Below, piece by piece: positions 7,886-51,883 of a DNA stretch of 53,284 nucleotides. Both the position numbers and the translations under genes were made by a program. The notes under the pieces were generated by a model, which was not told where the DNA came from, searched no databases, and saw only the letters and a list, made by a program, of their open reading frames with translations. This DNA is from Deltaproteobacteria bacterium (GTDB taxonomy: Bacteria; Desulfobacterota; GWC2-55-46; DRQE01). The stretch lies in assembly GCA_015492495.1 (NCBI GenBank), contig WGEY01000020.1:1-53284 (forward strand), given 5' to 3'. Every line of letters starts with the position of its first letter. Position 1 is the stretch's first letter.

Positions 7886-8392
7886 ATGGCCATAGCTCTG
7901 GTAGCGGTGGGCAATGTGGACAGGAAGCTCATGGAATGGCTCAAAATGGGGCTGGAGGGGGTCTTCGACGAGGAGGTGTTCATCGCCGGGGGCATGGATG
8001 AGCCCGGGTATGCCTTCAACGAGACGAGGAACCAGTACAACTCGACGGCCATTCTCTCATCCCTCCATGAACTCGCGCGTGGGAGGCTCCTCGGCATAGC
8101 CGACCACGACCTCTTTGCCAACGGGCTGAACTTTGTCTTCGGTGAGGCGTGGGGCGGCGCGGCCATAATAGGGCTAGCCCGCCTCCGGCAGGAGTTCTGC
8201 GGCCTGCCGTGCGATGAAAATATCTTTAAAAAAAGAGTGCTTACAGAAGCAGTCCATGAGCTCGGGCATACATACGGCCTCGGCCACTGTGACGAGCCGG
8301 ATTGTGTCATGTTCTTTTCCAACACCCTGTCCGATACCGACAGAAAGGGCTTCTCCTTCTGCGGTAGGTGCAGGAGGCGGCTTCGGGGTTGA
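7886..8392 (+). CDS. amzA: Archaemetzincin family zinc protease
   Basis: 168 residues. Archaemetzincins are small zinc proteases with an extended metzincin site and a second zinc site. The full signature is visible near the C-terminus: HELGHTYGLGHC, then C four residues on (DEPDCVM, the Met-turn region), then FCGRC 17 residues after the Met. This matches HExxHxxGxxHC-x4-CxM-x17-CxxC. The domain before it (MAIALVAVGNVD... and LLGIADHDLFANGLNFVFG) is also typical. An AGGAGAG ribosome-binding site precedes the ATG. The physiological substrate is unknown for the family. Its position after an aminopeptidase suggests a peptide-degradation pair. Confidence 0.93.
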   Translation: MAIALVAVGNVDRKLMEWLKMGLEGVFDEEVFIAGGMDEPGYAFNETRNQYNSTAILSSLHELARGRLLGIADHDLFANGLNFVFGEAWGGAAIIGLARLRQEFCGLPCDENIFKKRVLTEAVHELGHTYGLGHCDEPDCVMFFSNTLSDTDRKGFSFCGRCRRRLRG

Positions 8393-8947
8393 TCCCAGGG
8401 TATTCCCTCTGGATTGCCCTCGATCCAGCGCCCGCTTTTCTGACCTACACCGTCTTTTTGCGTGCTCTCGCCCCGGGCAGGCGCATGCCGTGCATCTTCT
8501 TGCCTCTGTCGTAAGGTGCCGGGGCTCATTCCCTACACTAAAGCCCGTTTTCATACACAAAAATTTGCCACGGTTTGTTTTTTTCTAAATATAAGTAACA
8601 AAACGCCGATAAATAAACATGAGATTACTCTTCCTCGAACCTTCACCGGAGCGGGCATAAACCAATCTGTTATCCACTTAAACCCGAACAATTGAGTACA
8701 GCACACATCCTTCTTAAGAGCCGGAAGAGGACAAACAGGATGGGTTTGGTATGAAATTAAAGAGATCTTCACAGACGGAGTGCCTTGAAGCCGGTGGTTG
8801 CCGGGTGTCGGCCTGTGGCCGCTCATTCGGTCACCAACTCTCCGCGCCTGGTCGCCGTGCCGCGTTCTTCCGGCTCAGCCGTGATGGTACATCGATACCA
8901 ACGAGTCCGGTTTACTTTATACATCTACATCAACAGGCAGGTGTATT
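8393..8947. other. Long spacer with a FliA-type promoter
   Basis: No convincing gene lies in these 555 bp. The main content is a sigma-28-type promoter at 8586-8612 pointing right. Immediately after it an ATG at 8619 opens a 13-codon frame ending at 8660, which could be a leader peptide or chance. The remaining 290 bp up to the response regulator show no recognised riboswitch. Confidence 0.5.
8586..8612 (+). promoter_or_regulatory. FliA (sigma-28) type promoter
   Basis: TAAA (8586-8589), exactly 15 bp, then GCCGATAA (8605-8612) matches the classical sigma-28 consensus TAAA-N15-GCCGATAA in full. The direction is rightward, toward the response regulator at 8948 and the chemotaxis cluster beyond. 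FliA control of chemotaxis genes is well established in flagellated bacteria. The distance of about 330 nt to the first gene is long. Confidence 0.7.
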
Positions 8948-9604
8948 ATGGAGCAGGTCAAGGTCCTTGTAGTCGACGACTATCCATACCTGAGAAGAGG
9001 GGTGAGTACGGTCATTTCATCACACCCTGGATACGCGGTTGTGGGTGAGGCGGAGGACGGCTTCAAGGCCATGGAAGGTGTGGCCAGGCTGAGGCCGGAT
9101 ATAGTTATAATGGACATATCCATGCCCCGTCTGGACGGGATCCAGGCCACCCGGCGGATCACCGAAGAGTTTCCCGGTACAAAGGTCATAATACTCTCCA
9201 TGCACACAGACCCTCTTTATGCGCTCAGGTCCTTCAAGGCAGGCGCCATGGGCTATGTATTCAAGGGCTCGGACCCTGATGAACTTCTTCTGGCCGTTGA
9301 AAGGGTCATGGCGGGCAAGATGTATGCAAGTCCCCAGGTGTCCGAGGACCTTCTGGGCAGTTTCGTTGACATGATCAAGGTGGACAGCCACCTGGAGCCG
9401 TTCGACTCGCTCAGCCTGAGGGAAAGAGAGATCCTTGAGCTCATAGCCGGCGGTGCAAAGAGCAGGGAGATAGCCTCCAGGCTCTTCATATCGCTGTCCA
9501 CGGTAAAGACCCACAGGATCAATATCATGAGAAAGCTGGGTGTAAACGACACCGCGGGGCTCGTAAAGGCGGCGATCCGCATGGGCCTGGCCGGTACGGA
9601 TTGA
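8948..9604 (+). CDS. NarL/FixJ-type response regulator (orphan)
   Basis: 218 residues: a receiver domain (about 4-120) with phosphorylatable D56 in VIMDISMPRLDG and acidic pair DD at 10-11, then a LuxR-type helix-turn-helix (about 150-210) with LSLREREILELIAGG and STVKTHRINIMRKLGV. It is a transcription factor switched by phosphorylation. No kinase is adjacent. It is strongly similar along its whole length (also 218 residues) to the regulator at 20766-21422, which does have a kinase, so the two may share or compete for one kinase. It lies between a FliA-type promoter and the chemotaxis cluster. The ATG has AGGTG seven bases upstream. Confidence 0.92.
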   Translation: MEQVKVLVVDDYPYLRRGVSTVISSHPGYAVVGEAEDGFKAMEGVARLRPDIVIMDISMPRLDGIQATRRITEEFPGTKVIILSMHTDPLYALRSFKAGAMGYVFKGSDPDELLLAVERVMAGKMYASPQVSEDLLGSFVDMIKVDSHLEPFDSLSLREREILELIAGGAKSREIASRLFISLSTVKTHRINIMRKLGVNDTAGLVKAAIRMGLAGTD

Positions 9605-9838: not shown

Positions 9839-10132
9839 ATGCCGGTAGTTTTCAGGAAGACCAAGAAAGAAGGCGTGCGCATTGTCATGAAGGGAAGGGT
9901 TGGTATCGAGGATGCCTCAGACCTCCTTTGTCGCCTTAAGGATGTCATCAACGGACCACTGACCATCGATATGGCCAATGCGGAGTCAATCGATACATCG
10001 ATCGTCCAGGTGATGCTTGCCGTCAGGAATGCTAAGAAGGACGCCTCGATGTGTGTAAGTAGGCCTCCTGTAGAGGTTGTCGAGGTATTGGAACAGGCGG
10101 GGCTTCGCGATGCGCTCGGTCCGGATTGGTAG
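9839..10132 (+). CDS. STAS-domain protein at the head of the chemotaxis cluster
   Basis: 97 residues forming one STAS domain, the fold of anti-sigma-factor antagonists. The phospho-site region reads ESIDTSIVQVML (about 49-60). D52-T53 sits where SpoIIAA-type proteins have Asp-Ser, and the form DT..(L/V)Q is common in STAS proteins encoded with chemotaxis genes. A threonine could still accept phosphate. The start ATG has AAGGA just upstream. The gene is 99 nt before a receptor gene and probably belongs to that operon. Its role is inferred to be protein-protein switching in the chemotaxis array. Confidence 0.75.
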   Translation: MPVVFRKTKKEGVRIVMKGRVGIEDASDLLCRLKDVINGPLTIDMANAESIDTSIVQVMLAVRNAKKDASMCVSRPPVEVVEVLEQAGLRDALGPDW

Positions 10133-10231: not shown

Positions 10232-11482
10232 ATGAAGGAACTCCATGATATTCAAAGGGTCTTCAGAAGGGTATGGGCAGCAAACATCCTGTTGCTTCTT
10301 ATACCGTTGACCCTTGCGTTGCTTTTCGTACAAAGCGCCCTCGCCATACTCTTTGCTTCCATCTTGTGCGTCTTTTCCGTAGCGGGCTCCTACATGTTCA
10401 TGAACAGGTCGCTTAAGGAATGGCACGGCACGCAAGAGAACGGTGATGACCGGGAAAGCGAGCCAGGCGCGTCTACTGCCGAAAAAGAGACACTTCTCGC
10501 CGTAAGCCGTGACTGTGTCGACATCATCCCGGTACTGGTCGGACAGTTAAAGGAGGTCGTCGAGCAGACGGAGTCCGCGGCCCTCGAAATAGGCAGGCGT
10601 TTTCAGGACATAGCCGACAAGGCGAACTCCCAGGCCGATATCGCTGCGACAACCATACGCAGCAGGGACGGCGAGGGCTCGGGCATGAGCATAGAGCAGA
10701 TACTCGATCTCGCCGGCAGGAGCCTTGAGGAGATGTCGGAGCGGGTCGTTAGGGCATCGGGCTCCACGCTCAAGGCCGTGGAGGAGATGGACGACGTGGC
10801 CGAGAATGTGAGGGTCATATCCCAGATACTTGAGGATATAGAGTACATAGCGGACCAGACGAACCTTCTTGCGTTGAATGCGGCCATAGAGGCGGCAAGG
10901 GCCGGGGAGCACGGAAGGGGTTTCGCCGTGGTGGCTGACGAGGTGAGAAAGCTATCTCACAAGTCCAACACATCGAGCGCAGGAATAAAGGAAGTGATCA
11001 AGAAGATAAACAAGCGCATAGAGGATGCCTCAAGGAGCATAAGGGAGATGGCCACAAGGGACGTCGAGGAGTCCGAGAAGGCGAGGGACGAGGTCAACCG
11101 GATGCTTGAAGATATCGTTCGTGCACATGATGGGCTTAAGTCTTCGATAGACCTATTAGCCGAAAGCAGCAGGGATATAGCCTCGGACATCTCCTCCATT
11201 GTTACGTCGTTACAGTTCCAGGACATCACCCGCCAGAGGATAGAACACGTAATAGAGCCCCTCGAAGAGATCAGGGCCGAGATGGACGGGGTTTTGGCCG
11301 GGGGCCCCGGAACGATGTTAGAGGGCGGCGGGGACAGGCTCGAGCGCCTCGTAGAGCGCTATACCATGGAGAAGGAACGGAGCACACTCGAGGTGGTCGC
11401 CGGAAAGAGGGCAGATGACGGCCGGGTTGTCCCAGCGAAGGCGGTTGGAAGCGAGTTGGGGGACAACGTGGAGTTGTTTTAA
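10232..11482 (+). CDS. Methyl-accepting chemotaxis protein without a periplasmic sensor domain
   Basis: 416 residues. Two hydrophobic segments lie back to back at about 18-36 and 38-56 with almost no loop, so there is no extracellular ligand domain. The signalling domain follows, with the hairpin tip [20 protein letters not shown] and [17 protein letters not shown]. The tip is of the DQTN type, unlike the FQTN type in the other two receptors of the cluster. It may sense membrane or intracellular conditions, or act as an adaptor for the array. The C-terminus ends DNVELF. The start ATG follows GAGAGGTAAG. Confidence 0.92.
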
Positions 11483-11582: not shown

Positions 11583-11951
11583 ATGAGCAAGACGATACTT
11601 ATCGTGGACGATGCCCCCACCATAAGACAGATGGTGAATTACGCCTTAGGGGGCGGGGAGTTCAAGATAGTGGAGGCCTGTGACGGAGAGGAGGCCCTTG
11701 CAAAACTCAAAAACGGTCTGAGACCAGATCTGGTGATAACCGACCTGAACATGCCGAAGATGGACGGCATAACACTTATAAAGAACATAAGGGAGCTTCC
11801 GAGCCACAGGTTCGTACCCGTTCTCATGCTCACCACCGAGTCTCAGCCGGCGAAGAAGAGGGAGGGCCAGGCCGCCGGGGCCTCCGGCTGGATAGTAAAG
11901 CCGTTTACGCCGGAACAGCTGCTCAAGGTGGTCGGAATGATGATCAGGTAG
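11583..11951 (+). CDS. cheY: Chemotaxis response regulator CheY
   Basis: 122 residues, a stand-alone receiver. It shows the acidic pair DD (VDDAPTIRQM), the phosphorylation aspartate in LVITDLNMPKMDG, the switch Thr in LMLTTES and the conserved Lys in WIVKPFTPEQL. The start at 11583 follows a strong GAGGAGGAAAG ribosome-binding site; the frame stays open further upstream but without family similarity. It lies directly before cheA and should be phosphorylated by it. The output is probably the flagellar motor or another motility machine; no motor genes are in the window. Confidence 0.93.
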   Translation: MSKTILIVDDAPTIRQMVNYALGGGEFKIVEACDGEEALAKLKNGLRPDLVITDLNMPKMDGITLIKNIRELPSHRFVPVLMLTTESQPAKKREGQAAGASGWIVKPFTPEQLLKVVGMMIR

Positions 11952-11984: not shown

Positions 11985-14015
11985 GTGTCTGACAATACCA
12001 TGATTGATCTGGACAAGGTAAGGGAGACCTTCTTTGCCGAGTGTGAAGACCATGTTGCGGCCATGGAATCTTCCATACTGGAGCTTGAGGAGAACCCCGG
12101 TGACGGGGAGCTCCTGAACTGTATCTTCAGGGCGGCCCACTCCATAAAGGGCAACAGCGGATGCCTCGGCTTCCAGCAGATATATTCGTTTACCCACACG
12201 ATGGAGACGCTACTCGAGAGGCTAAGAAGCGGGGAGATGGAGGTCTCCGGAGACATCACCTCCCTCCTGCTCGAGTCTGTGGACTGCATAAAGGTTCTCG
12301 TGGATGCGGCGAGGGAAGGCAATGGATGCGCCGAGACGGTCGGTGACACGCTGAAGAGGCTGGAAGCACTTCTCTCGGAAGACGGCGGTGCTCAGGCAGG
12401 ACGAGACAGGACCCCGTGTCCACAGACTCGAACCCCCTCCGGTGCGGCACGCTACAGGATAGTCTTCGAGCCCGGCAGGGAGCTCCTCAAACGCGGCATG
12501 GACCCCCTGAAGATACTGCAGGAGCTTTCTACACTCGGCCAGTTCGTTGAGGTAAGGCCGGACCTGTCGAGGCTCCCCGGGATACACGAACTGGACCCTG
12601 AACTCTGCTACCTCTCGTGGGAGATACTCCTTGAAAGCGATGTAGAGGAGTCCGTGCTGCAGGGGGTCTTTGACTTTGTAAGGGATGAAAGCCGCGTGGA
12701 GATAACCCGGGTAGATCCCTGCGGTGCCGTTGAAACCGAGGGGGAGGACACAGGCCGATCCGTCCAGCCTGTGCCGGCGGACGCAGGCAAGGTACGAAAG
12801 GATGCAGGCACCGCCGGGGGCAGGGAACGGAAGGCATCCCAGTCTTCGGAGTCCACGACCATAAGGGTGGATACTGAGAAGGTCGACAAACTGGTCAACC
12901 TGGTGGGGGAGCTCCTCATCACCCAGTCCATGGTGAGCCAGTTGACCTCGGAGCTTGTCCAGAGCAGGTCTAATCCCCTCTTCAACGCGGTGGCCCAGCT
13001 TGAACGGAATACGATGGAGATACAGGAGACCGTGATGTCGGTGAGGATGCTCCCCGTGGGCAGTGTCTTCAACAGGTTCAAGCGCCTGGTCCGGGACCTT
13101 GCCGTTGCGAGGGAGAAGAAGGTAAGGCTCATGATCGAGGGCGAGGACACGGAGCTGGACAAGACGGTCATAGAGATGCTGGTCGATCCGCTTACGCATC
13201 TTCTGAGGAACAGCGTTGACCACGGCATAGAGGCCCCTGAGGTGCGCCGGACCGCCGGAAAGCCGGAGGAGGGCACGATCAGGCTCACGGCCTTTCATGA
13301 AGGGGGCAAGGTCATAATCACGGTGGAGGATGACGGAAGGGGGATAGACAGGGACGCGGTCTTGAAGAAGGCCGTGGAAAAGGGGCTCGTCGAAGACGGT
13401 GCGGCGCTTTCCGACAGGGAGGTGTACAGCCTCATCCTCATGCCCGGTTTTTCAACCGCGGAGCGGATCACCGACGTCTCCGGAAGGGGTGTGGGCATGG
13501 ACGTGGTAAAGAGGAACATAGAGGGTATGGGAGGTTCGGTGACCATAGAGACCGAACACGGGAGGTTCACGCGGTTCGTTCTGAAGCTGCCGCTTACGCT
13601 GGCCATAATCGAAGGGCTCACGGTCTCGGTCGGCGGGGAGAAGTTCATCATACCCATAACAACGGTCCTTGAGTCAAAGAGACCGTCGAGGAGCGAGGTA
13701 AAGACCGTCGAGTCCGAGGGCGAGGTCATGAACTTCAGGGGCAGCTACGTGCCCATCATAAGGCTCCACCGTCTGTTCGGCCTGAAAGGGGCCAGGCATA
13801 CGCCGTGGGAGGCGCTCGTGGTCGTCGTATCGGTGGACGGAAAGGAATACGGCCTTCTGGTTGATGAGCTTTTGGGCGAACAGCAGGTGGTCATAAAGGG
13901 GCTCGGAAGCCTCCAGGGGGTTCCAGGCATAGCCGGGGCCACCATACTCGGGGACGGCAGGGTGGCGCTCATACTCGACGGCGCAGGGATCATAAAGAGG
14001 GGGCTTGGCCTGTGA
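11985..14015 (+). CDS. cheA: Chemotaxis histidine kinase CheA
   Basis: 676 residues, starting at GTG after TAAGGAG. The Hpt domain (1-105) has the phospho-histidine H52 in AAHSIKGNSGCLGF. A central region of about 155-245 resembles the extra domain of CheA proteins from Geobacter-like bacteria rather than a classical P2. The dimerisation domain is at about 290-360. The GHKL kinase domain runs from about 365 to 540, with N-box HLLRNSVDHGIE, G1 box VEDDGRGID and G2 GRGVGMDVV. The C-terminal CheW-like domain is at about 545-676. It receives input from receptors through CheW and phosphorylates CheY and CheB. It lies 33 nt after cheY. Confidence 0.97.
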   Translation: MSDNTMIDLDKVRETFFAECEDHVAAMESSILELEENPGDGELLNCIFRAAHSIKGNSGCLGFQQIYSFTHTMETLLERLRSGEMEVSGDITSLLLESVDCIKVLVDAAREGNGCAETVGDTLKRLEALLSEDGGAQAGRDRTPCPQTRTPSGAARYRIVFEPGRELLKRGMDPLKILQELSTLGQFVEVRPDLSRLPGIHELDPELCYLSWEILLESDVEESVLQGVFDFVRDESRVEITRVDPCGAVETEGEDTGRSVQPVPADAGKVRKDAGTAGGRERKASQSSESTTIRVDTEKVDKLVNLVGELLITQSMVSQLTSELVQSRSNPLFNAVAQLERNTMEIQETVMSVRMLPVGSVFNRFKRLVRDLAVAREKKVRLMIEGEDTELDKTVIEMLVDPLTHLLRNSVDHGIEAPEVRRTAGKPEEGTIRLTAFHEGGKVIITVEDDGRGIDRDAVLKKAVEKGLVEDGAALSDREVYSLILMPGFSTAERITDVSGRGVGMDVVKRNIEGMGGSVTIETEHGRFTRFVLKLPLTLAIIEGLTVSVGGEKFIIPITTVLESKRPSRSEVKTVESEGEVMNFRGSYVPIIRLHRLFGLKGARHTPWEALVVVVSVDGKEYGLLVDELLGEQQVVIKGLGSLQGVPGIAGATILGDGRVALILDGAGIIKRGLGL

Positions 14016-14097: not shown

Positions 14098-14634
14098 ATG
14101 TCCGGTAAAGGTGAAGAGACGGCGGTTGTCGGTGAGGGCCGCCAGTATGTGACGTTTCTCCTCGGCGAAGAGGAGTACGGCATAGACATCCTCAAGGTGC
14201 AGGAGATAATAGGGATCACCCCGATAACCACGGTTCCTTATCTGCCCGACTTTATCAAGGGGGTGATAAACCTGCGGGGTGTCGTTGTTCCGGTACTGGA
14301 CCTCAGGCTGAGGTTCAGGAGCGGGGAGGCCTCGTACAACGAGCGCACCTGCGTAATTATCATAAGGGTCGGCGAGAGGACCTTCGGAGCGGTCGTGGAT
14401 GCCGTCACAGAGGTCCTGGAGATCCCGGGGAATATGATAGACCCGTCGCCCGACTTCGGTTCCAAGGTCAGGACGGACTTCATCGAGGGCATGGGAAAGC
14501 TGGACGACAGGCTCATCGTGCTCCTCGACGTGGAGAGGCTTCTGAGCGAAGAGGAGATGAAGGGGCTGGAGAGTATCCCCGGCGATGAACCGGCGCGGGA
14601 CGGGGATGCAAAAGAACCCACGACCGCGGCCTGA
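14098..14634 (+). CDS. cheW: Chemotaxis coupling protein CheW
   Basis: 178 residues with one CheW domain at about 15-155. Typical blocks are YVTFLLGEEEYGIDILKVQE, the loop LPDFIKGVINLRGVVVPVLD and GAVVDAVTEVLEI. It couples receptors to CheA in the signalling array. About 20 residues at each end are charged and probably flexible. An AAGGAGGG ribosome-binding site precedes the ATG. It sits between cheA and the second receptor gene. Confidence 0.96.
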   Translation: MSGKGEETAVVGEGRQYVTFLLGEEEYGIDILKVQEIIGITPITTVPYLPDFIKGVINLRGVVVPVLDLRLRFRSGEASYNERTCVIIIRVGERTFGAVVDAVTEVLEIPGNMIDPSPDFGSKVRTDFIEGMGKLDDRLIVLLDVERLLSEEEMKGLESIPGDEPARDGDAKEPTTAA

Positions 14635-14670: not shown

Positions 14671-15795
14671 ATGTTCAAGGACCTGTTTGGAAGCAGGAAG
14701 AAGGATGCAGACGATCTTAGGCTAAGAGAGGAGCTCCACAAGTTCCAGACCCTGGTCAACGTAACGAACGAGAACATATTCGTCTGCGATGCGAGCGAGG
14801 AGAACATCCTCTACTGGATGAACGATACGGCAAGAAAGAGTCTTCAGGAGATGAAGAAGAACCTCAAGGACGAGCTGAACATAGACGTGGACTCGATAAT
14901 GGGCGGAAGTATCCACAGGTACCACAAGGACCCTGAACGCATAAAGCGCATCCTGGAAGAGATGGCCCGAACCAACAACACCCACAGGATGGACATCCCC
15001 CTCGGCAGGTACACGCTCCAGACCAACGTCCACGTCCTGCGCTCTACATCCGGGGAGGTCGTAGGGTACGCCGCATGCTGGAAGGACGTTACCGCGGAGA
15101 GGAGCCTCAAGGACAAGATAAGGCAGGAGGAGAAGGCAGCGGCCCGGATATCCTCGGCCGTCGAGGAGCTCACCGCCTCTGTGCACCACAACGCGGACAG
15201 CGCCAAGACGGCCAAGGAGCTTGCAACCGAGGCCAGTAGGGTCGCCGCAAGCGGCGGCGAGGTGGCAGAGGAGCTGGTCCGCGCAATGGCCGAGATAAAC
15301 AAGAGCAGCCAGAGGATATCGGACATCACCACGGTCATAGACGAGATAGCCTTCCAGACGAACCTGCTTGCGCTGAACGCGGCGATCGAGGCGGCGCGTG
15401 CGGGGGAGCTGGGCAAGGGGTTCGCGGTCGTTGCCGCCGAGGTCAGAAACCTCGCCCACCGAAGCTCCCAGGCCGCAAAGGAGATCACCGCCCTCATAAA
15501 GGACAGCGTGTCAAAGACCGAAGAGGGCAACCGTATGGCCGAAAAGACGGGCGGCACACTCGGCGAGATAGTAGAGAGCGTTAAAAAGGTGGCTGACCTC
15601 ATAAGCGAGATATCGGCCTCGTCCGCGGAACAGGCGACCGGCATCGACGAGGTGAACAGATCCATACTGCAGTTGACGAGCACCATTGCAACGGATTCGC
15701 ACAAGCCGGCAGGGGCCGGAGGCAAAACCGGCATGCAGACCGCAAGTACGGGCAACCTGGCCCTTGCGCACCGCGAGGAGTTCGTAGAGATATGA
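14671..15795 (+). CDS. Soluble PAS-containing methyl-accepting chemotaxis protein
   Basis: 374 residues with no membrane segment. An N-terminal PAS-like domain (about 20-145; [19 protein letters not shown] ... [15 protein letters not shown]) leads into the signalling domain (about 150-335). The FQTN-type tip reads [20 protein letters not shown], followed by [20 protein letters not shown]. The C-terminal part after GIDEVNRS is shortened compared with usual receptors, and the last methylation helix looks cut down. The chain ends REEFVEI, very close to the GHEFVEM end of the next receptor. Cytosolic receptors of this kind report internal redox or energy state; any cofactor is unknown. RBS: AGGAGAAGGGGG. 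Confidence 0.9.
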
Positions 15796-15970: not shown

Positions 15971-18004
15971 ATGAGAAAGGGTATCAAATTAAAACTCGGT
16001 CTGATCATGGGAGGTTTCATAGTCCTTATACTTGCGGCCGTTGGGGCCACATTCTGGACCGTGGGGCAGCTCAAGAGCGACGGAAAGGTGATCAACACGG
16101 CCGGCCGGCAGAGGATGCTCACCCAAAAGATGACCAAGGAGGTGGTGGCGCTTCTGGAAGGCAGGGCGGAAAAGGCCGAGGTGCTGTCCACCGTCGAGCT
16201 CTTTGACAGGTCCCTTAAGGCGTTGATCTCGGGTGACCCCGAAGAAGGCATCCCCCCTGCTGCCGAGCCGGAGATAGTCGCCCAGTTAGGCAAGGTCAGG
16301 GATATGTGGGATGGCTTCAAGGGCAACATTGAGGGCCTTGTCGAGGTGAACGATGAAAGAAACAAGGCTTATAACTATATCATGTCCCGTAACACCGCAC
16401 TCCTCGAGCTGATGAACGAGGCCGTCGGGGCCATGGAGAGGCACGGGCTCGACCCCAGGACCATCAACCTGGCCGGCCGGCAGAGGATGCTCACGCAGAA
16501 GATGGCAAAGGAGGCCCTTGCGCTTGAGCGCGGTGCTGTAAAGGCCGGGGACTTTCTGGCAACGGTGGCTCTCTTTGACAAAACCCTCAAGGGTCTCATA
16601 AGCGGGGATGCGGAGTTGGGCCTGAAGCCCGTAAGAAATCGGGCCGTCCTATCAAGTCTGCGAAAGGTGACCGAGGAGTGGGAGCCGTTCAGGGCCAATG
16701 CCGAAGCGCTGGTCGAGGTGACGAAACGGGGCGCAAGGCATTCGGATTACATCATGGCCACGAACGTCCCTCTTCTGAAGGAGATGAATACAGCCGTGGG
16801 CCTCTACGAGGCCTCAAGCGCCCGAAAGGTCTCGACACTTAAGACCATGCAGCTCGTCATCCTTGTAATCACGCTCGTAGTATTCGGTGCGGCGTGGCTT
16901 CTTCTCAACAGGATGATAATCAGTCCTGTAAAGAGGATAGCCGGGCTGACCCGGGCGGTGGCGGAAGGAGACCTCACCGCCGAGGATGTGGCTGTACGTT
17001 CGAACGACGAGTTGGGCGAGCTCGGCCGCTGTGTAAACGAGATGAAGGAGAACCTGAACAGGATGATATCCGGCATAAGAAGCGCGGCGATGCAGGTAAG
17101 CTCCGCATCCGAGCAGCTCGCCCTGGGCAATACCGAGTTCTCACAGCGCGTGACCGAGCAGTCGAGCTCACTTGAGGAGACGGCGTCCACCATGGAGGAG
17201 ATATCGGCCGGGGTGCAGCAGAACGCCGACACGTGCAGGGAGGCGAACAAGCTGGCCATGGACTGCCGGAACAAGGCCGAAGAGGGCGGGACGGTCATGG
17301 GCAGGATGATGAGATCGATCGAGGAGATAAACCAGAGCAGCAAGAAGATCTCCGACATCATAAACGTGATAGAGGAGATAGCGTTCCAGACGAACCTTCT
17401 GGCGCTGAATGCCGCTGTTGAGGCCGCGCGCGCGGGAGAGCAGGGCAAGGGGTTTGCGGTTGTGGCGGTGGAGGTAAGGAACCTGGCCCATCGCAGTTCG
17501 CAGGCGGCCAAGGAGATCACGGCTCTTATAAAGGAGAACCTTACCAAGGCAGAAACAGGCACGCAGTTCGCCGAGATGACGCACGCCAACCTCGAAGAGA
17601 TGATAACGAGCGTGAAGAAGGTTACGGACCTCATAGCCGAGATCAGCGCCGCCTCACAGGAGCAGGCGAGCGGTATCGAACAGGTCAACCGCGCCGTGAG
17701 CCAGCTCGACCAGGTCACGCAGCAGAACGCCGCACTGGTGGAGGAGTCGTCCACCACGAGCGAGGAGATGTCAGCCCAGGCGGTCCAGCTCTTGCAGCTC
17801 GTAAGCAGCTTCAAGGTCACCGAAGGGAGTTCGCGTGCGGGAGAGCCGGCACAGGAGCATGGATTCGAAGGCGGTAGCTTCTCGAACGTAACCCCCATCA
17901 GGCCGTCAAAGGAAGAATCAGGTGGTCCGCCGGCGGGCCCTTGGAGGCCGGAGAGTGCGGGCAAGGCCGTGGGTGACGAAGGCCATGAGTTCGTGGAGAT
18001 GTAG
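15971..18004 (+). CDS. Methyl-accepting chemotaxis protein with two tandem PilJ-type sensor domains
   Basis: 677 residues. TM1 is at about 9-28 and TM2 at about 294-313. The periplasmic part holds two copies of a PilJ/NarX-like four-helix unit. Copy 1 has [17 protein letters not shown] (41-57) and ends near 155; copy 2 has [17 protein letters not shown] (165-181) and ends near 280. Each carries LFD(R/K)(S/T)LK.LISGD. HAMP follows TM2 (about 314-366). The signalling domain has the FQTN-type tip [20 protein letters not shown]. The C-terminus ends GHEFVEM. In NarX/NarQ, GRQRMLSQ-like helices bind nitrate or nitrite, so an anion ligand is possible but unproven. cheR follows after 2 nt. Confidence 0.93.
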
Positions 18005-18006
18005 GT

Positions 18007-18840
18007 ATGGATATCGCCATAACGGACAAAGAGTTCAACCTCTTCCGCGAGATAATCTACAACGAGACGGGGATAAACCTCAAGGAGCACAAAAAGCCCC
18101 TCCTTGTATCGCGTCTTACCCGCAGGTTGATGGAGCTCGGTATAAACTCCTTCTCCGAGTACTACAGGATGGTTGTAACGGACAAGGGGGAGCTGGTGAG
18201 GCTGCTCGACCGTGTCAGCACGAACCTCACCGAGTTCTTCAGGGAGGCGAGGCACTTCGACTTCCTGCGGGGAGGATTCCTCGACGAGTTGAAGGAGCGT
18301 GCCAAAAGCACCGGGCAAAAGAAGATAAGGATATGGTCCGCCGCCTGTTCCACGGGCGAGGAGCCGTACTCCATAGCCATCTCCCTCTTGGAGGGGCTCG
18401 GCCGCGACAGCTCGTGGGACATAAAGATACTGGCAAGCGATATCTGCACCGAAGCGCTCGAGGCCGCTGAATGTGCCGTATACACCGAGGATAGGTTGCA
18501 GAAGGTGCCCCGTTGCCTTTGGAGCACCTATTTCCTGAGGGGACGCTACGGCTGTACCGGCAAGTACAGGGTCAAGGGCTTCGTAAGGGAGATGCTCGTA
18601 TTCAGGAGGTTCAACCTCAAGGAGAGGACGTGGCCCATAAGGGGCGGCTTCGATGCCATATTCATAAGGAACGTCCTGATATACTTCGACAGGCCCACCC
18701 AGGATGAGATCGTAGGCAAGCTGCTGCGTTACCTTAACAACGGAGGCTATCTTTTCCTGGGCCACTCCGAGACCATGCTGGGAAAAAGGGACGGTCTCAG
18801 GATGATTGTACCCAGCGTATACCGCAGGAGCAGTGAGTGA
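18007..18840 (+). CDS. cheR: Chemotaxis protein methyltransferase CheR
   Basis: 277 residues. CheR methylates glutamates on receptors using S-adenosylmethionine. The N-terminal helical domain (about 1-75) includes LKEHKKPLLVSRLTRRLMEL. The SAM site is RIWSAACSTGEEPYSIA, and RNVLIYFDRPTQ is another family block. There is no TPR extension. Its start lies 2 nt after the stop of the tandem-PilJ receptor, so the two are translationally coupled and that receptor is a likely substrate. Confidence 0.96.
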   Translation: MDIAITDKEFNLFREIIYNETGINLKEHKKPLLVSRLTRRLMELGINSFSEYYRMVVTDKGELVRLLDRVSTNLTEFFREARHFDFLRGGFLDELKERAKSTGQKKIRIWSAACSTGEEPYSIAISLLEGLGRDSSWDIKILASDICTEALEAAECAVYTEDRLQKVPRCLWSTYFLRGRYGCTGKYRVKGFVREMLVFRRFNLKERTWPIRGGFDAIFIRNVLIYFDRPTQDEIVGKLLRYLNNGGYLFLGHSETMLGKRDGLRMIVPSVYRRSSE

Positions 18841-18975: not shown

Positions 18976-20193
<1,218 letters not shown>

Positions 20194-20765: not shown

Positions 20766-21422
20766 TCATTCGAGCCTTACGAGCTTGTTCAGGACCGCCG
20801 CCTTGACCAGGCCGGCCGTATCATTGACCTTTAGTTTTTTCATTATGTTGACCCTGTAGCTCTTTATGGTGGACACCGAAAGAAAGAGTTTTTCCGCAAC
20901 CTGTCTGTTTGTATTACCTTCTGCTATCAGCTTGAGAACCTCCCTCTCCCTCAGGCTCAGGGAGCCGAAGGGGTCGGGGCTCTGTTCGCCCTTTATGATG
21001 TCCACGAAGTCGATCATGATCTCGTCCGCCAGGGGTGGGCTCGCGTAGATGAGCCCCGCCATCACCTTCTTCACCGCAAGGAGTATCTCGTCCGCATCTC
21101 CCCCCTTCAATATGTACGCCCTGGCCCCGGCTCGGAAGGCGTCCACGGCATACTGACGGTCCTGGTGCATCGATAGGATGATGACCTTTGTGTCCGGGTA
21201 CTCCCTGGCGATACGCTCGGTGACCAGTATGCCGTCCAGTTCGGGCATGGTGATGTCCAGGATGACTATATCCGGCCTGTGGATGGAGACCCCTTGCAGC
21301 GCCTTAAGGCCGTCATCCGCCTCGCCGACCACCGTGTAGCTGCTGTTGCTTGAGAATATGGACTTGATCCCGTTTCTTACGATCGGATGGTCATCAGCTA
21401 TGAATATCCTTACCTGCTTCAT
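20766..21422 (-). CDS. NarL/FixJ-type response regulator paired with the GAF/PAS kinase
   Basis: 218 residues. The receiver has D56 in VILDITMPELDG and the DD pair at 10-11. The LuxR-type helix-turn-helix is at about 150-210 (LSLREREVLKLIAEG, STIKSYRVNIMKKL). The start lies 4 nt after the stop of the upstream kinase, so they form a two-gene operon and a cognate pair. It is a close paralogue of the orphan regulator at 8948-9604, with blocks such as TKVIILSMH and VNDTAGLVKAA identical. Confidence 0.94.
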   Translation of the reverse strand: MKQVRIFIADDHPIVRNGIKSIFSSNSSYTVVGEADDGLKALQGVSIHRPDIVILDITMPELDGILVTERIAREYPDTKVIILSMHQDRQYAVDAFRAGARAYILKGGDADEILLAVKKVMAGLIYASPPLADEIMIDFVDIIKGEQSPDPFGSLSLREREVLKLIAEGNTNRQVAEKLFLSVSTIKSYRVNIMKKLKVNDTAGLVKAAVLNKLVRLE

Positions 21423-21426
21423 TCAT

Positions 21427-24039
21427 TCAAGCTCCTTCAGGCCAGTCTTCCTGCCTGTATCCCGGAAACTCGGCTATGATCTCGGTGCCTTTTCCGCGCT
21501 GAGACCTGATGGTCAGCGCTCCTTTCAAGGATTTGACCCTTTCCCTCATGAGCCTGAGCCCCACACCGCTACTTTGTCTTGAGCCCCTGCCTTTAGAAGG
21601 GAACCCGATCCCGTTGTCCCTGACCGAAAGCCTCAGGCGCTCTCCGTCCACCGAGCACCTCACATCGACCCTTGAGGCCGAGGAGTGCTTGACTACATTC
21701 TGGATGCACTCCTGCAGCACCCGGTATACGCACTGCTTGTATGCCTCCGGCAGCATCTCGACATCGCCTTCCATGTCGATATACCCTGTTATGCCCGCGG
21801 ACTCCAAGACGTTATTTACGTACCACGTCGCTGCATCTACCAGCCCCCTCTTGTCAATGAGCGACTCACCATAGGGGCTCACCGGATAAAGGTCGGAGCA
21901 CATGCCCCTTATGGCGCCGATCGTGCTCTCCAGCACCGAACAGACCTCGCCCAGCTTCTCTTTGGTTGCGGCCGGAGCGTCTTCCTTCAGGCACGTGGAG
22001 ATGGCCATCTTTATTGCTACGAGGTTCTGACCTATATCGTCGTGCAGTATCCGGGCGAACCTCTTGCGTTCCTTGTCTTCGAGCCTGGTTATCTCCATGG
22101 TGAGCTCATGCAGGTCCTTGTTGAGGATGTCCAGCTTGCGTGTCTTTGCCAGGAGCTCCTCTTCGGCGCGCTTGCGCTCGGTTATGTCTATGAAGGTCAC
22201 GACCGAGCCGGTAATATTGCCGTTTTTGCGAATGGGGTAGGACCAGTACTCGACCGGAAAGCACTTGCCGTCCTTGCGCCACAGGACTTCGTCGTCTGCA
22301 TGTGTCCCCTCGCCTTTTTGGAAGGCCCTGTATATACGGCAGTCGTCAACCGGGTAGGCCGATCCGTCGGGGCGCGTGTGGTGTATGAGCTCGTGCATGT
22401 TCCTGCCCAGTATGTCGCCGATCTCGTCGTAGCCCAAAAGCTTCAGGCACGCCGGGTTTGCGAATGTGCAGTTGCCGTCCAGGTCGAGCCCGTATATGGC
22501 CTCTGCAGTGGACTTCAACAGCAGCTCTATCTGCTCCTCCCGTTCGCGCAGGGCCTCCTCGGCGCGTTTGCGCTCCGTGATGTCCAGGATTATGGCAACG
22601 AAGACAGGTGTGGACTCAAAGGTGGAGGCCTGGACGTGGACTTCGACCGGATACACTGTTCCGTCCCTGCGCTTGTGGATGGTCGTAAACCTTACCCTTT
22701 TCTCCCTGCCGTCCAGCAGCGGCTCGAGCAGCCTGAGGAGCGATTCACGGGTGAACTCCGGCTTTATGTCCAGGGGGGTGAGGTCGCGGAACTCCTCGGC
22801 GGAGTAGCCGAGGTTTTTTACGGCTCCGTTGTTTACCTGGATGAAGCGCAGGGTCTCGGCGTTGAAGATGTATATTTCGTTGAGCGAATCATCGAGTATG
22901 CGGCCGAAGCGCGCTGCCATGGACTCAGCCCGCCTGCGTTCGGCCTGTGTTCTCAGGGACACGATGCCATAGGCCATGTCCTTGGCCAGCTCGTTCAGAA
23001 GGGAGACCTCCTCGTCGTTGAATGCATCCGGCTCTGATGCGTATATGTTGAGTGAACCGATGGTCTCCGAGTCGTCAACCAGGGGCAGGGCAATCGAGGA
23101 GGCGTAACCGCGCCTCTGCGCCTCGGCGCGCCAGGGCCTGTATGCATGATCTGCCGATATGTTGTTCAAGACAACGGGCCTGCCTTCGCGTATGGCCGTA
23201 CCGGTTGGACCGCGGCCCCGTGGGGTGTCCGCCCAGGTGATCTTCACGGTCTCCAGGTAGCCTTGCTCATACCCCGCCTGCGCCACGGGCTGTACGCTTT
23301 TCGCTCCGTCGTGCAAGGCATAGCCGACCCAAGCCAGCCGGTAGCCTCCTGTCTCCGTTATTATCCGGCATATCTCGTTGAGAAGCGAAGCCTCGTCCCT
23401 TGCGCGCACCAGCGCCTCGTTGCACTGGATCAGGACCTTGAGCGAACGGTTTACCTTGCGCAGCTCTTCCTCGGCCCGTTTGCGCCCTATCTCCGCCGAT
23501 GCCCTATCCGCGATGACCTCGAAGACATCCTGTGCCCTCGGCGGCAGCTCAAGCCTCTGGCGCGATATGGCGCAGAGTATTCCTATGGGAGCACCTTTCT
23601 TGTCCCTCAAAGGTGTTCCGGCGTACCCCTCGGCGCGCATCTCCACAAGTATCTTGTCCTGCGGGAACAGGTCACAGACGCCCTCGGGATAGATGCAGAA
23701 CCCCTTTTCAGAGACGTTTTCACAGGGGGTGCCGGGTAACCGGTAGGTGAGCGGTTCAACATGCCGACCGTCAAGCCTTATCGATATGGTCCTGACGCGG
23801 TCTTTGTCGACGAGTTCGCCGATGAGAGCGCAGTCGACACCGAGCCATTCGCAGAGGCTGTCCACGATCCCCTCGAAGAATTCCTGGCCGACACATCCGA
23901 CGGTACTTGCAACGAGCGTCTGCAACGTCCTGTCCGCCCGCCTGAGCTCAGCCTCCGATGCCTCCAGCTCGGCCACCCTGCGGCGCAGTCGCTCAAGTTC
24001 TTCGATGAGCGCGGCCCTATTTTCCGTGGTGTCTTTCAT
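21427..24039 (-). CDS. Multi-sensor histidine kinase (GAF-GAF-PAS-PAS, HisKA_3 type)
   Basis: 870 residues, with no membrane segment, so cytosolic. Order: a short coiled coil (about 10-40), GAF-like domain 1 (about 42-188), GAF domain 2 (about 210-366, with PTGTAIREGRPVVLNNI), PAS 1 (about 378-490) and PAS 2 (about 505-625), each PAS ending VAIILDITERKRAEE-like or VVTFIDITERKRAEE-like. Next comes a NarL-class dimerisation domain with phospho-histidine H666 in ARILHDDIGQNLVAIK, then a HATPase domain (about 770-866) with DNGIGF and GVGLRLMRERV. It phosphorylates the adjacent regulator. The ligands of the four sensor domains are unknown; no haem or flavin motif is evident. Confidence 0.94.
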   Translation of the reverse strand: MKDTTENRAALIEELERLRRRVAELEASEAELRRADRTLQTLVASTVGCVGQEFFEGIVDSLCEWLGVDCALIGELVDKDRVRTISIRLDGRHVEPLTYRLPGTPCENVSEKGFCIYPEGVCDLFPQDKILVEMRAEGYAGTPLRDKKGAPIGILCAISRQRLELPPRAQDVFEVIADRASAEIGRKRAEEELRKVNRSLKVLIQCNEALVRARDEASLLNEICRIITETGGYRLAWVGYALHDGAKSVQPVAQAGYEQGYLETVKITWADTPRGRGPTGTAIREGRPVVLNNISADHAYRPWRAEAQRRGYASSIALPLVDDSETIGSLNIYASEPDAFNDEEVSLLNELAKDMAYGIVSLRTQAERRRAESMAARFGRILDDSLNEIYIFNAETLRFIQVNNGAVKNLGYSAEEFRDLTPLDIKPEFTRESLLRLLEPLLDGREKRVRFTTIHKRRDGTVYPVEVHVQASTFESTPVFVAIILDITERKRAEEALREREEQIELLLKSTAEAIYGLDLDGNCTFANPACLKLLGYDEIGDILGRNMHELIHHTRPDGSAYPVDDCRIYRAFQKGEGTHADDEVLWRKDGKCFPVEYWSYPIRKNGNITGSVVTFIDITERKRAEEELLAKTRKLDILNKDLHELTMEITRLEDKERKRFARILHDDIGQNLVAIKMAISTCLKEDAPAATKEKLGEVCSVLESTIGAIRGMCSDLYPVSPYGESLIDKRGLVDAATWYVNNVLESAGITGYIDMEGDVEMLPEAYKQCVYRVLQECIQNVVKHSSASRVDVRCSVDGERLRLSVRDNGIGFPSKGRGSRQSSGVGLRLMRERVKSLKGALTIRSQRGKGTEIIAEFPGYRQEDWPEGA

Positions 24040-51187: not shown

Positions 51188-51883
51188 ATGAAAAAAATCT
51201 TGTTGCTTCTCTTGATGGCGGTGGCCCTTGTCGCATGGCACGGAAAGGCCGGGGCGGTTACGGTCTACATGAACGACTTCGAAGGGCCGGTAGGGGCCGA
51301 GTGGTCGAACACATCGACCGATACAACGCCAGTGGGGTCCAGAAGGTTCCTCGGACAGTTCAATAACGAAACAGTGGGCCTCACGCTCACCGGGTTGCCC
51401 TCCCACACGGACGTAACCATCTCATTTGACCTGTTCCTGATAAACTCGTGGGACGGCAACGCCACCGGGTACGGTCCGGACATCTGGGGGCTGGATGTCA
51501 CGGGCGGACCAACGCTCCTCTATACGACATTCAGCAACCTCGACGAGGGCAACTTCTCCCAGTCCTATCCCGACACCTACCCGGCGGCCAGCCCGTATCC
51601 GGCCCATACCGGCGCGTCGGAGGTAGACACGCTCGGCTATAACTTCTACGGCAACTCGGTCTACAACCTGAGCTTCACATTCCCTCACACCGATGGCTCG
51701 ATAGTGTTCGACTTCTATGGCAGCGGACTCCAGGCTATAGGTGATGAGAGCTGGGGGCTTGACAACGTGAAGGTCGAGGTCGGCCCGTCCGTAGCACCGG
51801 TCCCAGAGCCCTCCACCGTGGTGCTGCTCGGAGCAGGGATTGCGGGATTGGCGGCCTTAGGGAGAAGGAAGAAGAGGGATTAG
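51188..51883 (+). CDS. PEP-CTERM sorting-domain exported protein
   Basis: 231 residues. The signal peptide is at about 1-23 (MKKILLLLLMAVALVAWHGK). The central part is rich in Thr, Asp, Gly and aromatic residues, beta-sandwich-like (MNDFEGPVGAEWSNTST, then YDFYGSGLQ-like strands), typical of secreted polymer-associated proteins. The C-terminal sorting signal is VPEPSTVVLLGAGIAGLAAL followed by GRRKKRD: the PEP motif, a membrane helix and basic residues. Exosortase (EpsH/XrtA) would cleave it during export with exopolysaccharide. No exosortase gene is in the window. It has its own sigma-54 promoter, a strong TAAGGAGG ribosome-binding site and a terminator hairpin. Confidence 0.93.
   Translation: MKKILLLLLMAVALVAWHGKAGAVTVYMNDFEGPVGAEWSNTSTDTTPVGSRRFLGQFNNETVGLTLTGLPSHTDVTISFDLFLINSWDGNATGYGPDIWGLDVTGGPTLLYTTFSNLDEGNFSQSYPDTYPAASPYPAHTGASEVDTLGYNFYGNSVYNLSFTFPHTDGSIVFDFYGSGLQAIGDESWGLDNVKVEVGPSVAPVPEPSTVVLLGAGIAGLAALGRRKKRD

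Follow-up and report, generated by a model that had tools for sequence, protein, structure and literature searches.

The window, a stretch of 53,284 nt from a genome of 2.26 Mb in 112 contigs (G000), carries on its forward strand a ten-gene chemotaxis cluster headed by a NarL-type response regulator. The start of the regulator at 8948 agrees with that of its relatives, which have the same first residue. The upstream gene ends at 8392, leaving an intergenic gap of 555 nt (8393–8947). The features of the gap and the cluster are as follows.

8565–8595 (+): weak sigma-70-type candidate, TTGCCA-N19-TATAAG, overlapping the sigma-28 site
8586–8612 (+): sigma-28-type promoter core; -35 TAAA at 8586–8589, 15-nt spacer, -10 GCCGATAA at 8605–8612
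8613–8947 (+): predicted long 5' untranslated leader
8619–8660 (+): 13-codon frame MRLLFLEPSPERA plus stop, at chance level and probably not expressed
8948–9604 (+): NarL/LuxR-type response regulator (Response_reg + GerE), first gene of the unit
9839–10132 (+): STAS-domain protein
10232–11482 (+): chemoreceptor with MCP signalling domain
11589–11951 (+): CheY-like receiver
11985–14015 (+): CheA with Hpt, dimerisation, HATPase and CheW domains
14098–14634 (+): CheW
14671–15795 (+): chemoreceptor
15971–18004 (+): chemoreceptor with PilJ-type sensor domains
18007–18840 (+): CheR
19078–20193 (+): CheB

At the far end of the cluster and in the opposite direction, a GAF-PAS histidine kinase and another NarL-type regulator are encoded (20766–24039, -); the latter and the regulator at 8948 share 57% identity. 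The preliminary description called the regulator at 8948 an orphan, which holds locally. However, a histidine kinase lies directly upstream of the regulator in two relatives (G011, and G049 on a separate contig), and the GAF-PAS kinase mentioned above is possibly its partner. Elsewhere in the window (51188–51883, +) lies a gene whose product bears a PEP-CTERM sorting motif at its C-terminus.

The sigma-28 core and the sigma-28 regulon of the genome

The sequence TAAATATAAGTAACAAAACGCCGATAA at 8586–8612 (+) consists of TAAA, 15 nt and GCCGATAA, with zero mismatches, as had been described before. A search of both strands of the window for TAAA-N14..16-GCCGATAA returned this site as the sole match, and 0 of 100 dinucleotide-shuffled windows contained one. 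When the 555-nt gap was simulated 20,000 times with a first-order Markov model, only one simulated sequence had an exact forward-strand match with a spacing of 15 or 16 nt. A chance occurrence of the core is thus unlikely. Its spacing falls within the 15–16 nt of sigma-28 promoters, and it lies upstream of and is oriented towards the regulator and the chemotaxis genes, in agreement with the preliminary description, though at a distance: the approximately 330 nt given there measured 335 nt from the end of the -10 element to the regulator ATG. Because relatives confirm the regulator start, a leader of about 330 nt is to be expected. The extended FliA consensus of Escherichia coli is TAAAGTTT-N11-GCCGATAA. 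The earlier wording "full consensus" is accurate for the 12 core positions but not beyond them: the regulon of this organism has G at position 5 and a spacing of 16 nt, the site T and 15 nt.

The genome encodes FliA (TIGR02479, 264 bits, cut-off 189.6) together with FlgM, the pair expected where sigma-28 promoters are used, as well as a flagellin and a second flagellin-type protein. The fliA gene that the preliminary description had proposed to look for, and whose absence it had named as a refutation, is therefore present, and its proposal that the organism is flagellated is supported by fliA, flagellin and flgM. The motif TAAAG-N15/16-CCGATA occurred 12 times in the genome, compared to one match for the reversed control, and a sigma-28 regulon clearly exists. 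Sites of this pattern were located 36 nt before flgM, 48 nt before a flagellar rod/hook-type gene and 165 nt before a PilJ-type chemoreceptor gene elsewhere in the genome, while flagellin had a variant site, TTAAG-N16, 122 nt before the gene. Not all of the 12 matches can be taken as functional, because some sit within genes or precede non-motility genes (mraZ and a HEAT-repeat protein). The sigma-28-like sequence before mraZ, TAAAGTGTTATGGATATCTTCCGATA (C76:26758–26783, locus L177), lies 48 nt from this gene at the head of a cell-division cluster; if it were real, the flagellar and division programmes would be linked.

We also compared the site with the organism's own form of the motif. Searching the genome for TAAA-N12..19-GCCGATA gave 10 matches, of which six had a spacing of N16, two N15, one N12 and one N18. 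The N16 spacing was clearly selected (P about 1e-6) and N15 weakly (P = 0.045 for at least two matches at N15 where 0.33 is expected). All six N16 sites had G at position 5, as had 18 of 18 clade flagellin promoters used to train a scoring matrix. The two N15 sites, namely 8586–8612 and a site on contig C36, both had T at this position; the window site is thus TAAAT-N15, as opposed to the usual TAAAG-N16-CCGATA. Agreement with this extended motif of the organism and its clade (TAAAG, mostly N16) was treated as a preference and not as a strict requirement.

The matrix was made from flagellin promoters of relatives, 18 of 30 flagellin loci being used. Rows with a wrong start or no clear site, the near-duplicates L083, L084, L100 and L101, and the organism's own locus (L088) were left out, as were, with no stated reason, further rows such as L095 and L097; L072, L076 and L079 were retained despite misplaced starts. 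On this matrix, whose choice of rows was biased towards the consensus, 8586–8612 scored 14.9, compared to 18.9–25.9 for the training members and 15.9 for the genome's flagellin promoter. With a first version of the matrix the site scored 13.6, and scores of at least 13 arise by chance about four times per Mb and strand.

The sequence ACGCCGATAA was found six times in the genome, and in our own reading of the coding frames two copies lie outside them, 8586–8612 and the C36 site. Each of the two is preceded by TAAA at a spacing of exactly 15 nt, with P(TAAA) of about 0.012 and 0.007. The C36 site (L067 2830–2856, -) is the only other exact TAAA-N15-GCCGATAA in the genome and is separated by 95 nt from the ATG of a downstream gene with GAF and adenylate/guanylate cyclase domains; among relatives of this cyclase, no sigma-28 site was found in G001, and G051 had a match at 9 of 12 positions. 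Taken together, 8586–8612 is an exact textbook core yet an atypical member of the organism's own set, and the evidence for it is somewhat weaker on the genome-wide view than within the window. It is conceivable, at rather long odds, that the two TAAAT-N15-ACGCCGATAA sites form a small sigma-28 sub-class apart from the TAAAG-N16 flagellar sites. Such a sub-class, differing from those sites in strength or timing, would couple the GAF-cyclase and a second chemosensory array that has a NarL regulator of its own to the assembly of flagella.

The regulator in relatives and the leader

The order regulator-(STAS)-MCP-CheY-CheA was common to G000, G001, G006, G008 and G011, with no STAS match found in the G006 cluster. 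In G001, G006 and G008, the nearest relatives with a cluster starting at this regulator, no sigma-28 site was found before the regulator. Their gaps measured 485, 776 and 675 nt, respectively (the G008 value starts at a tRNA gene), and alignment of the window gap with those of G001, G006, G008 and G037 yielded no shared block beyond short matches. Instead, G006 and G008 share a sigma-70-like TTGACA element, located at -297 and -267, respectively, relative to the regulator, which suggests that in the sister genus the regulator has a sigma-70 promoter followed by a long leader.

In other relatives, sigma-28-like sites were detected. Those of G011 and G049 were weaker, lying in G011 between the regulator and STAS (score 14.4) and in G049 just upstream of STAS (16.3), with a further one inside the G049 kinase gene (16.7). 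Among 30 regulator-family loci, the 700 nt upstream contained sites scoring at least 14 in G000, G018 (17.5), G041 (21.2) and G037 (24.0). Apart from G000, this amounts to 3 of 29 loci in sense, against 0 of 29 in antisense and 2 of 145 shuffles, an enrichment that comes from three loci, two of them of one genus. The G037 site lies 312 nt before the regulator ATG and is thus a second case in which a long leader separates a sigma-28 site from this regulator. The G037 leader (L063 864–1497) contains a repeat-like stretch, CATTGCGAACGATGTGAAGCAATCCC..., which may have lengthened it.

Two homologous chemotaxis clusters open with a sigma-28 site, in G050 (score 24.8, 29 nt before the first gene) and G055 (19.0, 39 nt). 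The G050 site (L163 3453–3480) faces an NtrC-type regulator, and the G055 site (L164 917–943) faces a GGDEF protein. Of 20 clusters from more distant members of the phylum, none showed a strong sigma-28 site within about 5 kb; the G189, G264 and G071 matches were left out of this set, and one cluster in it was only 1.2 kb long. Hits of at least 14 in this set numbered six in sense to one in antisense, and coding composition may explain part of the sense bias seen at the regulator loci, because these distant clusters show it as well. The search in relatives that the preliminary description had called for, which covered genomes from outside the genus of G000, thus had a mixed outcome: the exact position is absent from G001, G006 and G008, but sites occur before the regulator family in G037, G041 and G018 and before the homologous clusters in G050 and G055.

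The leader (8613–8947) was analyzed for coding and RNA signals. With the sigma-28 transcript start taken as about 5–9 nt after the -10 element, the ATG at 8619–8621 falls at the predicted start and opens a frame of 13 codons with a stop at 8658–8660, as had been pointed out before. This frame is unremarkable: an ATG in a 5-nt window is expected by chance in about 8% of cases, and its codon score was -0.19, compared to 0.28 to 0.58 for 12 window genes. A leader peptide was rejected on these grounds, and so was a 73-codon frame from 8751 (-0.42 per codon against the same gene range). A search of the leader against Rfam matched no family. Folding of the whole leader resembled that of shuffled sequence (z 0.32), and four pieces of it gave z from -1.58 to 0.97. 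Among 62 other genomes of the class, the only leader match was one of 31 nt in G001, within what appears to be the coding sequence of a DNA methyltransferase. A standard scan found no terminator-like site in the leader. A riboswitch or small RNA was likewise rejected, and the earlier suggestion that the leader might encode a small RNA or leader peptide found no support, neither a conserved or structured RNA nor a frame with coding signal having been found. Judging from the sequence, the leader is probably inert.

Interpretation of the site

We consider 8586–8612 to be probably a working sigma-28 (FliA) promoter of known kind, at an unusual distance and with an off-consensus fifth base. RNA polymerase carrying FliA would recognize TAAA-N15-GCCGATAA, initiate near 8619, transcribe a 5' untranslated region of about 330 nt and then the NarL-type regulator, and continue into STAS-MCP-CheY-CheA-CheW-MCP-MCP-CheR-CheB. 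Late flagellar genes wait for FlgM export. The chemosensory array would accordingly be made late, after hook completion and FlgM export. The sequence and rarity of the site, the presence of fliA, flgM and flagellin, further copies of the motif in the genome and the order of the genes were observed directly, whereas use of the site by FliA, transcription as far as the regulator and an inert leader are inferred. In the best reading, a probable, somewhat atypical sigma-28 promoter gives the regulator and the cluster a long, probably inert 5' untranslated region. Against this, the leader would be far longer than those of most other sigma-28 genes of the genome (36–165 nt).

Alternatively, the housekeeping sigma factor could transcribe the regulator and the cluster from the AT-rich TTGCCA-N19-TATAAG, the sigma-28 match being incidental. 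The candidate fits 10 of 12 hexamer positions, and the TTGACA elements of G006 and G008, in front of the same regulator and with no sigma-28 site, show a comparable arrangement. However, its 19-nt spacer is poor, no sigma-70 site was listed for 8393–8947 by a standard scan, and an exact 12-base sigma-28 core, observed in 1 of 20,000 simulated gaps, would be left unexplained. We regard this explanation as unlikely. Less likely still is the use of both promoters, with a basal sigma-70 start beside the sigma-28 start. Such a tandem was seen by eye, rather than scored by a tool, in G037 and G041, where TTGTAA-N17-TATACT and TTGAAA-N17-TATAAT, respectively, lie no more than about 50 nt downstream of the sigma-28 site. 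The two candidates also occur together in the window, but there the sigma-70 element, itself weak, shares nucleotides with the -35 element of the sigma-28 site, making simultaneous use doubtful. It is very improbable that the transcript from the site stops short of the regulator and yields a separate small RNA under sigma-28 control or a leaderless peptide of 13 aa: the leader is long, and sigma-28-dependent small RNAs derived from untranslated regions are described for E. coli (PMC10578931), but apart from the 31-nt match in G001 the leader has none of the terminator, Rfam, folding, homology or coding signals sought above.

If the sigma-28 promoter is used, the late flagellar genes of an uncultured lineage would include an extra chemosensory array and its transcriptional regulator, and control of the array would shift between relatives, being sigma-70-like in one genus and sigma-28 in others. 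The site reveals no new mechanism.

Comparison with known sigma-28 promoters

The FliA promoters of tar-tap-cheRBYZ and motAB-cheAW in E. coli resemble the window site in having TAAA near -35, a 15-nt spacing, GCCGATAA or GCCGATAT as the -10 element and chemotaxis genes downstream (PMC4183435). They differ at position 5, which is G or C in these promoters and T in the window, and the window leader of about 330 nt is a further difference. The table of E. coli FliA sites in the same paper includes some that have C or A as the fifth base; none of its accessible rows starts with TAAAT, as the window site does (PMC4183435). In that source, intragenic E. coli FliA sites more than 300 nt from a start codon are considered unlikely to drive ordinary mRNAs, a point against the window site.

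Also comparable is the sigma-28-type site of G037, which shares the regulator family, a distance of 312 nt to the ATG and a CheY-like gene next. It differs in its G at position 5, its score of 24.0 and FtsH as the upstream gene, and the remainder of its leader does not align with that of the window. Compared to the sigma-28 sites of the organism's own regulon, which are TAAAG-N16-CCGATA (TTAAG for flagellin) at 36–165 nt from the gene, the window site is TAAAT-N15 at 335 nt; it nevertheless has the same -35/-10 core as the sites before flgM, the rod/hook-type gene, the PilJ-type chemoreceptor and flagellin, and like them it faces late flagellar or chemotaxis targets.
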